From contig JANQJN010000192.1 of NCBI GenBank assembly GCA_028281625.1, positions 1-36,456 of the forward strand: a stretch of 36,456 nt of DNA, given 5' to 3'. How positions within the stretch are numbered: the first letter of the stretch is position 1; each line of letters begins with the position of its first letter. The notes beneath the pieces were generated by a model. The model saw only the letters and a program-made list of their open reading frames with translations. It was not told the origin of the DNA and did no database searches. The position numbers and the translations under genes were made by a program. Source of the DNA: Emcibacteraceae bacterium. GTDB lineage: Bacteria > Pseudomonadota > Alphaproteobacteria > Sphingomonadales > Emcibacteraceae. Of the stretch, positions 6,381-28,687 are shown piece by piece.

Positions 6381-7202
6381 ATGAATTTTCTTATTGAAAA
6401 TGAACAAACTATACGCCTGAGTGCATTTCTGGGCCTACTGGTTGTTTTTGCCTGTGCCGAATTTATTGCGCCACTGGCAAAGCGCCAGGTCTCCAGGCCC
6501 TATCAGTGGTTTACCAATATTTCAATCGTCATCATAGATACCCTGGCGATGAGAATAGTTGTGCCGATGCTCGCCGTGGGTGTCGCTTTATATGCCGAAG
6601 AACAAAATATCGGTCTGTTCAACATGATCAATGCCGATGTTTGGGTCTCCTTTACTCTATCGCTTCTACTTCTTGATGTGCTGATTTATGGTCAGCATGT
6701 AATGATGCATAAAGTGCCGATATTGTGGCGCCTTCACCGTATGCATCATTCAGAGCTGGGGCTTGATGTCACTTCGGCATTACGGTTCCACCCGTTTGAA
6801 ATAATTATATCCATGTTAATTAAAATGGGTTTTGTTTTGCTCATCGGCGTACCGGTAGCGGCCGTGATTGTGTTTGAAACACTGCTCAATGGCCTTGCGC
6901 TTTTTAACCACAGTAATTTAAAACTTCCGCGCCCCCTTGAAAGAGCGCTGCGAACCGTCATCATAACGCCGGAGGTTCATTGGATTCACCACTCAGAAAT
7001 CAATAAGGAAACCAACAGCAACTTCGGCTTTAACCTGTGCATTTGGGATAAACTATTTGGCACATATGTGGATAAGCCAACTTTGGATTACCCTGAAATG
7101 CGTCAGGGGCTGCAGGAATTTGGTTTTAAAAAACCTTTAAGTATCATAGAATTAATCATCTCACCCTTTAAAAACTATCCGGTAGAGAAAGATGGACAAT
7201 AA
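6381..7202 (+). CDS. Sterol desaturase/fatty acid hydroxylase family membrane protein
   Basis: The 273-residue protein has hydrophobic segments at about residues 12-30, 45-72, 88-105 and 140-165. It carries the full histidine-box set of the di-iron hydroxylase superfamily: H106-x3-H110, H119-x2-H122-H123, H137, H177 and H200-x2-H203-H204. Such enzymes hydroxylate or desaturate fatty acyl, sterol or carotenoid substrates at the inner membrane. The PEVHWIHHSEINKETNSNFG region is typical of the bacterial subgroup with undefined substrates. The next gene, a patatin-like lipase, starts 3 bp after the stop, which suggests coupled translation and a joint role in lipid modification. The substrate cannot be read from the sequence. 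Confidence 0.92.
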   Translation: MNFLIENEQTIRLSAFLGLLVVFACAEFIAPLAKRQVSRPYQWFTNISIVIIDTLAMRIVVPMLAVGVALYAEEQNIGLFNMINADVWVSFTLSLLLLDVLIYGQHVMMHKVPILWRLHRMHHSELGLDVTSALRFHPFEIIISMLIKMGFVLLIGVPVAAVIVFETLLNGLALFNHSNLKLPRPLERALRTVIITPEVHWIHHSEINKETNSNFGFNLCIWDKLFGTYVDKPTLDYPEMRQGLQEFGFKKPLSIIELIISPFKNYPVEKDGQ

Positions 7203-16476: not shown

Positions 16477-17292
16477 TTAGGCCGCCTGTGCTTTTTTTTG
16501 ACGCTTAAGAAGTTCCGCAGCAAGCTCTAAATAGGCCTGGCTGCCCGCGCAACGCAAATCATAAAGAAGAACGGGTCTGCCGTGGGATGGTGCCTCTGAT
16601 ACGCGAACGTTTCTGGGTATCACGGTCTTGAAAACCTTGTCACCCAAAAAGTTTCTTACATCCGCTGCCACCTGTTCAGATAGGTTGTTGCGGCTGTCAA
16701 ACATGGTGAGAATTATGCCGCCTATTTCCAGGCTCGGATTAAAGTTCGCCTTGACCGTTTCAATGGTTTGTAAAAGAAGGCTCAACCCCTCGAGAGCAAA
16801 AAATTCACACTGAAGAGGCACCAGGACAGAATGGGCCGCTGCCAACGTATTCAAAGTAAGCAAGTTCAGGGATGGCGGACAATCAATCAGGACATAATCA
16901 TAATTTTCCAGCACCGGATCCCTAAAAGCGCGTCGAAGTCTAAATGTCCTTTGCTCAGCATCCACAAGTTCGAGTTCCGCTCCGGTAAGATCAATGGTTG
17001 ATGGAACAAGATCAAGGCCAGGCACCATGGTGTCCACAATTGCCTCGGCTAAAGACACTTCGCCCATGATCACTTCATAGCTGCTATATTCCCGTTCGTT
17101 TCGCTCACGACCCAGACCAGTACTGGCATTTCCCTGCGGGTCCATGTCAATGATCAATATGTCTTTTTTCGTTGCCGCGAGCGCTGTTGCCAGATTTATT
17201 GCCGTAGTGGTTTTTCCCACACCCCCCTTTTGATTGGCAACTGCGATGATCTCCGGTTGGCGCCCGTTTGAGGATAAGCCTGTGGATAACAT
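16477..17292 (-). CDS. parA: Chromosome partitioning ATPase ParA
   Basis: ParA forms an ATP-dependent DNA-bound gradient that pulls ParB-parS complexes during segregation. The 271-residue product has the deviant Walker A motif KGGVGKTT at residues 22-29, IDMDPQGNASTGLG (Walker A') and VLIDCPPSLNLLT (Walker B), plus the MFDSRNNLS region. It is followed by parB and preceded by rsmG (41-bp gap). The ATG at 17292 is embedded between two perfect DnaA boxes, so the first codons (M-L-S-T) are themselves part of a DnaA box. A later start would remove residues close to the P-loop, so this ATG is preferred. Confidence 0.97.
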   Translation of the reverse strand: MLSTGLSSNGRQPEIIAVANQKGGVGKTTTAINLATALAATKKDILIIDMDPQGNASTGLGRERNEREYSSYEVIMGEVSLAEAIVDTMVPGLDLVPSTIDLTGAELELVDAEQRTFRLRRAFRDPVLENYDYVLIDCPPSLNLLTLNTLAAAHSVLVPLQCEFFALEGLSLLLQTIETVKANFNPSLEIGGIILTMFDSRNNLSEQVAADVRNFLGDKVFKTVIPRNVRVSEAPSHGRPVLLYDLRCAGSQAYLELAAELLKRQKKAQAA

Positions 17293-17301
17293 TGTGGATA
17301 A
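17281..17301 (-). promoter_or_regulatory. Two perfect DnaA boxes flanking the parA start codon
   Basis: TGTGGATAA occurs at 17281-17289 and again at 17293-17301. On the minus strand these are two TTATCCACA boxes in the same orientation, start-to-start distance 12 bp, with the parA ATG between them. DnaA bound here would block translation-start-proximal transcription or the promoter region of parA. Confidence 0.75.
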
Positions 17302-21506: not shown

Positions 21507-21515
21507 TTATCCACA
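21507..21515 (+). promoter_or_regulatory. Perfect DnaA box upstream of the alkyltransferase gene
   Basis: TTATCCACA matches the DnaA consensus exactly. It is 60 bp before the alkyltransferase start and 220 bp before the mnmE start, and is one of only three perfect boxes I noted in the window. Confidence 0.6.
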
Positions 21516-26445: not shown

Positions 26446-27483
26446 CTATCTTCTGTAGTTCAGAATAATATCTGAGACCATCTTCACATTCTCCGGTGGA
26501 GTTTGCGGTATGATCCCATGCCCTAGATTAAATACGTGTGGGCCGTCTTTTAGATGATCTAAAATGTGATAAACTGCTTTTTCCAGTGGTTTGCCCCCAG
26601 CGACAAGAAGCAGCGGATCCAGATTTCCCTGCACCGGGCAAAGGGGCTGCACCACATTAGCCACCCAGGATGTGGAGGTAGAAGTATCAATACTTACCGC
26701 ATCCACACCGGTTTTTTTGACGAAATTCTTTACCTTCGCTCCAGCTCCTTTTGGAAAACCGATGATAGGAACGTCAGGATGCACGGCACGGATGTTTTCT
26801 ATGATTTGCTTCACCGGTTCAATACACCATTTGATAAATTCATCTGCCGGAAGCGTTCCGGACCAACTGTCAAAAATTTGCAATGCCTCTGCGCCGTGAT
26901 CCACTTGCCGGATCAGATACTCGGATGTGGAAATTACCAGCAAATCAATAATCTTTTGAAAGGTTTCGCGGTCCTGATAGGCCATTAGCCTGGTTTCTGC
27001 CTGATCCTTCGATCCTTTACCATTGACCATATAGGTGGCCACAGTCCATGGCGCACCGGCAAAGCCAATAAGCGAGACATTTTCAGGTAGCTGTTCTGAA
27101 AGGTTTGAAACGGTTTGATAAACAGGCGACAAATGATCATGAAGCCTTTCTATTGAAAGCGCTTCAAGCGTTTCCTTGTTATTCACCGGCGTTAGAACAG
27201 GCCCTTCTCCTGCCCTGAATGCCAAATCCTGTCCCAGCGCGTGCGGAATGACCAGAATATCGGAAAAGAGGATTGCCGCGTCCATATTAAAGCGCCTGAT
27301 GGGTTGTAAAGTCACTTCTGTGGCAAAGTCTGGATTATAACAAAGATCAAGAAAGGAACCGGCTTCCTTTCTAAGGGCCATATATTCAGGCAAGTATCTG
27401 CCTGCTTGCCTCATGAACCAAAAAGGTACACGGGAAGTTTGCTCACCCTTTAAAGTCTGGATAAAAAGTTTGTTCGTGCTCAT
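26446..27483 (-). CDS. hemE: Uroporphyrinogen decarboxylase
   Basis: HemE decarboxylates uroporphyrinogen III to coproporphyrinogen III. The 345-residue product shows PFWFMRQAGRYLPEY at the N-terminus, ILFSDILVIPHALGQDL, LIGFAGAPWTVATYM, FDSWSGTLPADEF, IIGFPKGAG and VQGNLDPLLL, then HVFNLGHGIIPQTPPENV. Length is normal. It heads the hemE-hemH-hemJ operon, with start ATG at 27483. Its upstream region is the candidate origin, so the hemE promoter must lie within or beside it, as in Caulobacter. Confidence 0.97.
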   Translation of the reverse strand: MSTNKLFIQTLKGEQTSRVPFWFMRQAGRYLPEYMALRKEAGSFLDLCYNPDFATEVTLQPIRRFNMDAAILFSDILVIPHALGQDLAFRAGEGPVLTPVNNKETLEALSIERLHDHLSPVYQTVSNLSEQLPENVSLIGFAGAPWTVATYMVNGKGSKDQAETRLMAYQDRETFQKIIDLLVISTSEYLIRQVDHGAEALQIFDSWSGTLPADEFIKWCIEPVKQIIENIRAVHPDVPIIGFPKGAGAKVKNFVKKTGVDAVSIDTSTSTSWVANVVQPLCPVQGNLDPLLLVAGGKPLEKAVYHILDHLKDGPHVFNLGHGIIPQTPPENVKMVSDIILNYRR

Positions 27484-27865
27484 ATGTTTATCGTCTTAAA
27501 AGTTATACACCGTTATTCTTACTAATATTATATTTATATATAAATATTGTTGTTGTTATTTGGTCCTGTGGAGACTGTGGATTAAATGATACCCACAGCC
27601 AATACAAGAATTATCAACAGTTAATTTCGTTTACGCAAAAATAGTATTTCCCGATCAAAATCACTCTATACATATAACTCTGTGGGCAAAATGAACAGAA
27701 CTATTATAAGATTTTATAAGTTGCCAAATTGGTCGGATAACTTAATCCACAGCAGGAAAACATCAGGATTAAAAAAGAAACAGGGGCATGATAAAATAAG
27801 CACTTGCAAATTATACCCACTTATCCCCATTATTCAGGCAATTCTATAAAGTTGGAAAGTAATCC
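27484..27865. other. Candidate chromosomal replication origin (oriC)
   Basis: This 382-bp AT-rich gap has no open frame. It lies between divergent hemE and the dikinase-regulator gene, the same place as the Caulobacter origin. Near-consensus DnaA boxes (consensus TTATCCACA): TTATACACC 27503-27511, reverse TAATCCACA 27576-27584, TTATCAACA 27611-27619, reverse TTGCCCACA 27681-27689, TAATCCACA 27743-27751, TTATACCCA 27811-27819 and TTATCCCCA 27821-27829. None is perfect. An almost pure A/T block lies at 27520-27549. Gene direction switches here. I did not find TTAA-N7-TTAA CtrA sites or GANTC sites inside the gap. The hemE promoter must also be here. Confidence 0.82.
27512..27562. other. Candidate DNA unwinding element
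   Basis: The stretch is almost entirely A and T, especially 27523-27547, and sits next to the first DnaA box on the hemE side of the candidate origin. This is the expected composition and placement of an unwinding element. Confidence 0.5.
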
Positions 27866-28687
27866 ATGACAAAAGTACATCTCCATCTTGTGTCCGATTC
27901 CACGGGGGACACGCTTGAACAGGTCGCCAAAGCTTCCATGGTTCAATTTCCCGGAATTGAGCCCATAAAACACTATTGGCCGATGATCCGTACCGCGCGC
28001 CATATGGAGCGGTTGATTGCAGAAATGGAAGAAAACCCTGGCATTGTCATGTTCACTTTGGTGGATCATGAAATTGAAAAAGTGCTTGTGGATGCCTGCA
28101 AAAAATATAACTGGCCCTATATTTCAGTGCTACACGGAATTATCCGCGAACTTGGTCGCCACCTTGGCGAAACGCCAACCGAGCGTCCTGGCCTTCAGCA
28201 TCAGATGGACGATGAATATTTTGAGCGGATCGATGCTATTCAATATACTCTCGCCCATGATGATGGGCAGATTGCAGAAAATCTTTATGATGCGGACATT
28301 ATTCTGGTTGGTGTTTCCAGAACATCAAAAACACCAACCTGTATTTATCTGGCGAACCGCGGATATAAGGCCGCCAATATACCGATAGTGCCGGGTTGCC
28401 CAATACCAGTGGAGCTAGAGCAGTGCAAAGATAAATTTGTCGTTGGTCTGGTGAATAGTGTAGACCGATTGGTGCAAATCAGAAGAAACCGCCTTTTAAT
28501 GCTTAAAGAAAGCAAAACCACCGATTATGTGGATGAGGAACTGGTCAAGGAAGAAGTGAAGGAAGCCCGCCGCCTGTTCAGCAAAATGGGCTGGCCCACA
28601 GTGGATGTGACCAGAAGATCCATCGAAGAAACATCGGTTGCAATCATCAATCTTAAAAATAAATATGATGAAGAACATCAACAGTAA
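27866..28687 (+). CDS. Pyruvate, phosphate dikinase (or PEP synthase) regulatory protein
   Basis: This 273-residue protein belongs to the kinase/pyrophosphorylase family (DUF299). Members inactivate pyruvate phosphate dikinase or PEP synthase by ADP-dependent threonine phosphorylation and reactivate it by phosphorolysis. Visible motifs are HLVSDSTGDTLEQVAKA at the N-terminus, FTLVDHEIEK, DAIQYTLAHDDGQ, the P-loop-like GVSRTSKTPTCIYLAN and a C-terminal TRRSIEETSVAIINL. Whether the target is dikinase or PEP synthase cannot be decided here; dikinase is the usual partner in alphaproteobacteria. It is the first rightward gene after the candidate origin, equivalent to the Caulobacter origin-flanking gene. 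Confidence 0.93.
   Translation: MTKVHLHLVSDSTGDTLEQVAKASMVQFPGIEPIKHYWPMIRTARHMERLIAEMEENPGIVMFTLVDHEIEKVLVDACKKYNWPYISVLHGIIRELGRHLGETPTERPGLQHQMDDEYFERIDAIQYTLAHDDGQIAENLYDADIILVGVSRTSKTPTCIYLANRGYKAANIPIVPGCPIPVELEQCKDKFVVGLVNSVDRLVQIRRNRLLMLKESKTTDYVDEELVKEEVKEARRLFSKMGWPTVDVTRRSIEETSVAIINLKNKYDEEHQQ

Follow-up and report, generated by a model that had tools for sequence, protein, structure and literature searches.

A very probable chromosomal origin with weak DnaA boxes in the hemE-ppsR gap of an alphaproteobacterium, with a phase-locked triplet array beside its A/T block

The chromosomal origin of Caulobacter crescentus, Cori, occupies a position on the side of hemE. As described for this organism, the origin has no boxes stronger than its moderate G-boxes (TGATCCACA), besides which there are very weak W-boxes (TCCCCA), mutations that raise the affinity of origin boxes can lower replication, and some promoters possess stronger DnaA boxes than the origin does (PMC4468827, PMC4285127). 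The opening elements of two other model bacteria have been described in terms of short single-strand motifs. The basal unwinding system (BUS) of Bacillus subtilis consists of tandem boxes, a GC-rich tract and DnaA-trios, 5'-TAG-3' (PMC8287927, PMC10316083), and the published search for it requires a middle A in three or more triplets lying no farther than 16 bp from a box. Its authors suspected that deviant trios lacking the middle adenine occur (PMC8287927). Residue Asn187 of B. subtilis DnaA contacts the middle base of the trio, at which A or C work and G or T are impaired (PMC10721633). In Escherichia coli the upper unwinding strand is reported to be read as TT[G/A]T(T) (PMC10316083).

We analysed a 36,456-bp stretch of DNA from an Emcibacteraceae bacterium (hereafter the window), which is one entire contig of an assembly comprising 205 contigs. 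The original prediction had placed a candidate replication origin between divergent hemE and a dikinase regulator, in a gap without genes that contained an A/T block and a switch in gene direction, and had named a GC-skew minimum around 27.5 kb as the check. Our analysis confirmed these features. The gap (Table 1) measures 382 bp, has 31% GC, contains no gene, and separates hemE on the minus strand from ppsR on the plus strand; its A/T block spans 27524-27563 and is 88% A+T. The cumulative GC skew of the window reached its minimum at 28001, 136 bp inside ppsR, and both skew sign and gene direction change at the gap. Since the contigs of this assembly cannot be ordered, global skew was read in a closed genome of the same genus, G012 (3,369,470 bp), of which 540 kb out of 3.37 Mb were covered. 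In a contiguous 140 kb of that genome the cumulative minimum fell at 3288717, 141 bp outside its own hemE-ppsR gap (3288858-3289206), and across 20 sampled stretches of 20 kb the skew was positive in the first ten (to 1,536,000) and negative in the last ten (from 1,684,001). In the first ten stretches GGGNAGGG was counted 14 times on one strand and 0 times on the other, and in the last ten 0 and 8 times, respectively. The dnaA gene of G012 (C1:4-1431) is located approximately 80 kb away from the origin gap.

The sequence elements of a hemE-type origin were found: a gap beside hemE with a DnaA box cluster and an A/T block, together with a skew minimum, the latter through position 28001 of the window and the stand-in G012. 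Given these minima, the flanking genes and the fact that gap and boxes alike are conserved, positions 27484-27865 very probably represent the chromosomal origin of an alphaproteobacterium. Structured RNAs and tRNAs were dropped as candidate features, with no Rfam match at the gathering threshold and no tRNA in the window.

Table 1 Features of the putative origin, its flanks and the parA box pair (window coordinates)
Feature	Position	Strand	Support
oriC, hemE-ppsR intergenic gap (very probable)	27484-27865		skew minimum, box cluster, conserved gap, gene-direction switch
hemE, uroporphyrinogen decarboxylase, left flank	26446-27483	-	PF01208
ppsR, kinase/pyrophosphorylase family, right flank	27866-28687	+	PF03618 (Kinase-PPPase)
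DnaA box TTATACACC, 2 mismatches, outermost on hemE side	27503-27511	+	≤2 mismatches in 12/12 aligned genus members
A/T block with perfect 9+9 palindrome ATATTTATA/TATAAATAT, probable unwinding element	27530-27547		palindrome; genus and family alignments
Triplet array TTG TTG TTG TTA, middle base always T	27547-27558	+	phase-locked T-N-G triplets in relatives
Tract GGTCC between array and boxes	27562-27566		sequence; alignment
DnaA box GTCTCCACA, 2 mismatches, adjoins and points at array	27567-27575	-	loosely kept
DnaA box TAATCCACA, 1 mismatch, tandem with 27567	27576-27584	-	≤2 mismatches in 10/13 genus members
DnaA box ATACCCACA, 2 mismatches	27589-27597	+	≤2 mismatches in 12/13 genus members, perfect in 2
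DnaA box TTATCAACA, 1 mismatch	27611-27619	+	≤2 mismatches in 12/13 genus members
Near-box TTGCCCACA, 2 mismatches, not conserved	27681-27689	-	1/13 genus members (window itself)
DnaA box TAATCCACA, 1 mismatch	27743-27751	+	≤2 mismatches in 12/13 genus members, perfect in 3
Near-box TTATACCCA, 2 mismatches, not conserved	27811-27819	+	1/13 genus members (window itself)
DnaA box TTATCCCCA, 1 mismatch, holds Caulobacter W-box hexamer TCCCCA	27821-27829	+	≤2 mismatches in 13/13 genus members
Perfect DnaA box pair around parA start codon (TTATCCACA-ATG-TTATCCACA)	17281-17301	-	approximately 10.2 kb from gap; contrast to origin, not part of it

Comparisons were made at several taxonomic depths. The family sample comprised 27 arrays, obtained from 29 loci after setting aside two cut by contig ends, with one locus rejoined where a circular record had split it at its start. 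For the order, 21 of 28 genomes were used (six with matches were left out and one had no match). At class level 143 genomes were searched, 99 gave a ppsR match, 40 of these were taken by hand (mostly one per family), and the 37 gaps with hemE next door were retained. Sixteen named relatives bear the labels Emcibacteraceae, Kordiimonadaceae, Emcibacter, Kordiimonas or just Alphaproteobacteria.

DnaA boxes were scored as mismatches to TTATCCACA, with 1000 dinucleotide shuffles of the gap serving as the null. Within the gap, four boxes had a single mismatch, five had two and none was perfect. The shuffles averaged 0.17 boxes when up to one mismatch was allowed and 2.1 when up to two were, and the observed counts (4 and 9, respectively) were never reached. 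In the genus alignment of 13 gaps, six boxes were firmly kept in place and a seventh, at 27567, loosely (at most two mismatches in 6/13 members and at most three in 11/13), the rate at positions outside boxes being 0.2%. When 28 gaps of at least 300 bp were pooled (27 from the family and one from the order), we counted 13 perfect, 98 one-mismatch and 125 two-mismatch boxes, compared with 0.14, 3.9 and 47 in shuffles. The earlier description of at least seven near-boxes in the gap, none of them perfect, is therefore upheld by the nine sites within two mismatches and the absence of any match to TTATCCACA in 27484-27865.

The triplet array is the newer and more unusual part of the locus and goes beyond the original prediction. 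It lies between the A/T block and the tandem boxes 27567 and 27576, both of which point at it, and when extended by the following TTT (to 27561) it gives TTGTTGTTGTTATTT, with four overlapping TT[A/G]T copies. Four triplets could be followed in frame, read back from the box, in the 27 family gaps, L021 deviating most. T prevails at the first base and G at the third (in the fourth triplet, either A or G), with a variable middle base; on a family tree built from hemE and ppsR, the least number of changes over the four triplets was 7 at first, 24 at middle and 5 at third positions. Runs of at least three T-N-G triplets on the array strand, within the 40% of the gap nearest hemE, were present in 25/27 family, 10/21 order and 17/37 class gaps, leaving 11/21 order and 20/37 class gaps without such a run there. 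On the other strand of the same portion they were seen in 0 family, 1 order and 0 class gaps, at the ppsR end in none of the three samples, and on the opposite strand of the whole gap in 0 family, 1 order and 2 class gaps.

Position, skew, box cluster, A/T block, phase-locked array and the two conserved box deviations discussed below, all apparent at the level of sequence, are best explained as a whole by an oriC in which weak boxes are filled cooperatively and the tandem pair guides a DnaA filament onto the array, a reading to which we assign a probability of roughly 0.8. The order of events, affinities and strand choice that we infer would be as follows. Plentiful active DnaA would fill the weak boxes cooperatively; the tandem pair 27567/27576 would guide an ATP-DnaA filament onto the plus-strand array at 27547-27558; and the filament on the array would lead to opening of the A/T block at 27524-27563 and to loading of the helicase. 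Firing would then depend on a high level of active DnaA, and perfect boxes elsewhere, such as those at parA, would be bound at lower levels. Across this class the triplets seem to tolerate A, T or G in the middle, and most of the DnaA proteins concerned carry Tyr or Phe where B. subtilis has the residue that contacts this base.

How far the array resembles the BUS depends on the base in the middle of the triplet. The box part of the BUS, defined here as a box with at most two mismatches that points at the array, a tandem partner with at most four and a spacer of at most 16 bp, was found in boxes 27567 and 27576, the former being 8 bp from the nearest triplet (27556-27558). Three consecutive 3'-NAN-5' triplets within 16 bp of either box were absent, and the sole formal BUS match in the window gap lay at the unconserved box 27681. 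Formal matches occurred somewhere in the gap in 14/27 family members, and at the array beside the conserved boxes in 3/27 only (L014, out of phase, L020 and L023). Because the middle-A rule thus fails in the window and holds at the array in just these three relatives, the array can be called a trio only in a wider sense than the published one.

The same sequence can be read in the manner of E. coli, with TTGTTGTTGTTATTT representing TT[G/A]T(T) motifs that are bent back to box-bound DnaA, and with no adjacently loaded trio array. The window fits this motif four times within 27547-27561, the highest number of TT[A/G]T copies among the 27 family members, and in E. coli, too, the motif is placed on the upper strand (PMC10316083). 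Many relatives, however, carry TAG or TGG instead of TTG at the same triplets and are left with 0 to 2 TT[A/G]T copies, so that what is kept is the triplet frame and not TTGT. For the IHF-induced bend between boxes only one candidate was found, an IHF-like site at 27612 with one mismatch to the consensus. We consider opening of the E. coli type somewhat unlikely, and prefer a filament guided onto the array by the tandem boxes.

Are the boxes of this origin kept weak, or do they just happen to be imperfect? The proposal that low-affinity boxes are a matter of design fared unevenly. A perfect box was lacking from 19/28 gaps overall and from 8/13 in the genus, and present in 9/28 pooled gaps, 13/20 order gaps and 13/37 class gaps; in the five genus members that have one, it falls at the places of 27589 (two members) or 27743 (three members). 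Since perfect copies are gained and lost at these two places, the lack of a perfect box is common but not fixed, and the possibility that it reflects chance, with no selection for weakness, draws on precisely these counts. Against it, two boxes each keep a non-consensus base in 27/28 family gaps. Position 2 of box 27576 is A in 27 of them, in a test that fitted 28/28 gaps and could detect this position as A or T only. Position 7 of box 27821 is other than A in 27, and C in 26 of these; correspondingly, TTATCCCC is found at this place in 26/28 gaps, 15 of which end in A (TCCCCA). Such conserved deviations are the trace that would be expected of selection for a weak site, making chance alone an unlikely explanation. 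The claim of design is supported only indirectly, by the deviations kept at these two boxes, and 5/13 genus members do possess one perfect box.

An altered box preference of DnaA, as a cause of the imperfect boxes, was rejected: TTATCCACA occurs 78 times genome-wide versus 19 for the reversed pattern. By eye, the box-reading helix of this genome's own DnaA looks canonical.

Across all T-N-G runs the middle base was A in 81, T in 67, G in 55 and C in 1 (n = 204, from related and hence not independent genomes), and, of the 27 family arrays, that of the window alone had no A in the middle of any of its four triplets. The DnaA residue that occupies the place of B. subtilis Asn187 is Tyr216 in this genome (aligned with PDB 8btg). 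Tyr was found here in 27/28 family sequences, with Asn in one, and in 2/2 order sequences. The 29 best-matching class sequences from 143 genomes had 26 Tyr and 3 Phe, a set that leans towards near relatives because it consists of the best matches to this genome's own DnaA. A separate phylum sample gave 9 Tyr, 1 Phe, 1 Val and 2 His in 13 alphaproteobacterial proteins, and Thr (7), Ala (5) or Gln (3) in 15 from other Pseudomonadota. The exceptions are one family DnaA (L141-L168) with Asn, and L256, L264 and L266 with Val or His. In view of them, an aromatic residue is common, but not universal, in Alphaproteobacteria.

The residue that reads the middle base in B. subtilis being usually aromatic here, we tentatively propose, at rather less than even odds, that DnaA of Alphaproteobacteria may open a T-N-G array that tolerates A, T or G in the middle, with TAG and TTGT as interchangeable states. 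As TAG, TTG and TGG replace one another in related gaps without a shift of frame, both published motifs may represent alternative forms of a single element. We hold this proposal at this lower level because Val, His and Asn also occur at the residue within the class. The surroundings of dnaA at 18 loci (three of them alphaproteobacterial) contained candidate arrays in three only, none convincing, so that the proposed dependence of the middle base on residue 187 sets one class against the published B. subtilis work. The gaps of two order members with other residues, G036 (Phe) and G042 (Val), had no run of three T-D-G triplets.

It is also conceivable that the array is not read by DnaA at all, being a G/T-rich, C-free strand kept for strand asymmetry, helicase loading or another protein, with the A/T block alone opening. 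The near absence of middle C (1/204) would be expected of such a strand as well. A three-base phase with conserved flanking T and G around a free middle base would not, and the array, which adjoins the box pair, is confined to a single strand and to the hemE end of the gap. This renders an unread array distinctly unlikely, and leaves loading of DnaA from the tandem boxes as our preferred account.

In the window outside the gap, perfect boxes were located at 7067 (in an ORF), at 17281 and 17293 (the parA start) and at 21507, which confirmed the perfect copies previously noticed at parA and before ogt and added the one at 7067. The box at 21507-21515 sits between trmE and ogt, and a perfect box upstream of trmE was found in 3/14 relatives examined. 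G012 had 62 perfect boxes in its genome versus 15 for the reversed pattern, and none in its gap or the flanking 32 kb. At parA, a perfect box was present between 75 bp before and 60 bp after the start in 19/27 family loci. Outside the genus this was the case in 14/15 loci, where the box uses the same codons, Leu-Ser-Thr, mostly after ATG TCC ACA; the codon choice involved would be expected at about 0.7% (0.124 × 0.214 × 0.280, from the codon use of these genes), a figure to be read with the loci being related and dependent. The further outside-genus member, L083, had no perfect box in the parA-start stretch shown. Within the genus, 7/12 loci (L093, L095, L096, L098, L100, L101 and L102) had no perfect parA-start box, and in L099 the perfect boxes lay 36 and 60 bp upstream of the aligned start. 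No perfect box was seen at the parA start in three loci from another family. From these sequences it is a fair guess that parAB may be under DnaA control.

That the gap is a mere bidirectional promoter region with DnaA-regulated promoters, replication starting elsewhere, would suit its divergent flanking genes and the fact that promoters, too, carry DnaA boxes (PMC4468827), but is very improbable in light of the skew minima of G012 (141 bp beyond its gap) and of the window (136 bp inside ppsR) and of box-rich hemE-ppsR gaps across the family and much of the order and class.

Control of this origin by CtrA was considered and rejected. As had been noted at first reading, TTAA-N7-TTAA is absent from 27484-27865; one-mismatch versions are absent as well, and over the 28 gaps full sites were no commoner than chance (1 versus 3.8 expected), with 29 one-mismatch sites versus approximately 50; these figures are halved from counts of 2, 7.6, 58 and 99.5, as the pattern is its own reverse complement and was counted on both strands. 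The genome nevertheless encodes a CtrA protein, 76% identical to C. crescentus CtrA. Since CtrA is present but has no site in this origin, rivalry with CtrA for shared sites does not account for the weakness of the boxes. GANTC methylation sites were discarded as a feature, with 0 in the window gap and a scattered occurrence among relatives.

Other short motifs were observed in the gap. In some genus members a TTAA-AAATGAA-TTAC-like motif adjoins the 27743 box. In the region 27743-27800, many genus members have box 27743 followed by a TTAAAAATGAATTA-GGG-like motif, which is degenerate in the window and does not amount to a full CtrA site. The spacer motif TATACATATA at 27668-27677 is common to 6/13 genus gaps (L001, L002 and L004-L007).

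Set against the known systems, the gap is like Cori in that its boxes are weak by sequence and stronger ones lie elsewhere. The Caulobacter G-box TGATCCACA is off consensus at position 2, as is TAATCCACA of the gap, although the base is A here and not G, and the W-box hexamer TCCCCA is contained in TTATCCCCA, so that both weak-box classes are present by sequence, one as the position-2 deviation and the other as the hexamer. Unlike Cori, the window gap has neither TTAA-N7-TTAA nor GANTC. The contrast between a weak origin and strong boxes elsewhere is not new, because it is already known for Caulobacter (PMC4468827), and the weak-box origin repeats an established design in a different family. 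The Caulobacter strategy thus seems to extend to a family in which CtrA is encoded although this origin carries no site for it.

With the B. subtilis BUS the locus shares two tandem boxes, a short GC tract, a three-base array and an A/T block, in the same order and orientation and with similar spacing. It departs from the BUS in its middle bases: T in all four triplets of the window, where the published search wants A in at least three, and T and G commonly among relatives, with C nearly absent. What is described for B. subtilis predicts that a middle T or G is bad and a middle C acceptable (PMC10721633), the reverse of the pattern that these gaps use. If the middle base is indeed free, the window, with no middle A, would be the extreme case of such an array. 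How DnaA manages to recognise single-strand motifs that differ from one bacterium to the next has been put forward in print as an open question (PMC10316083), and the array described here, which resembles the B. subtilis element in its layout and the E. coli element in its TT[G/A]T(T) motifs, bears directly on it.
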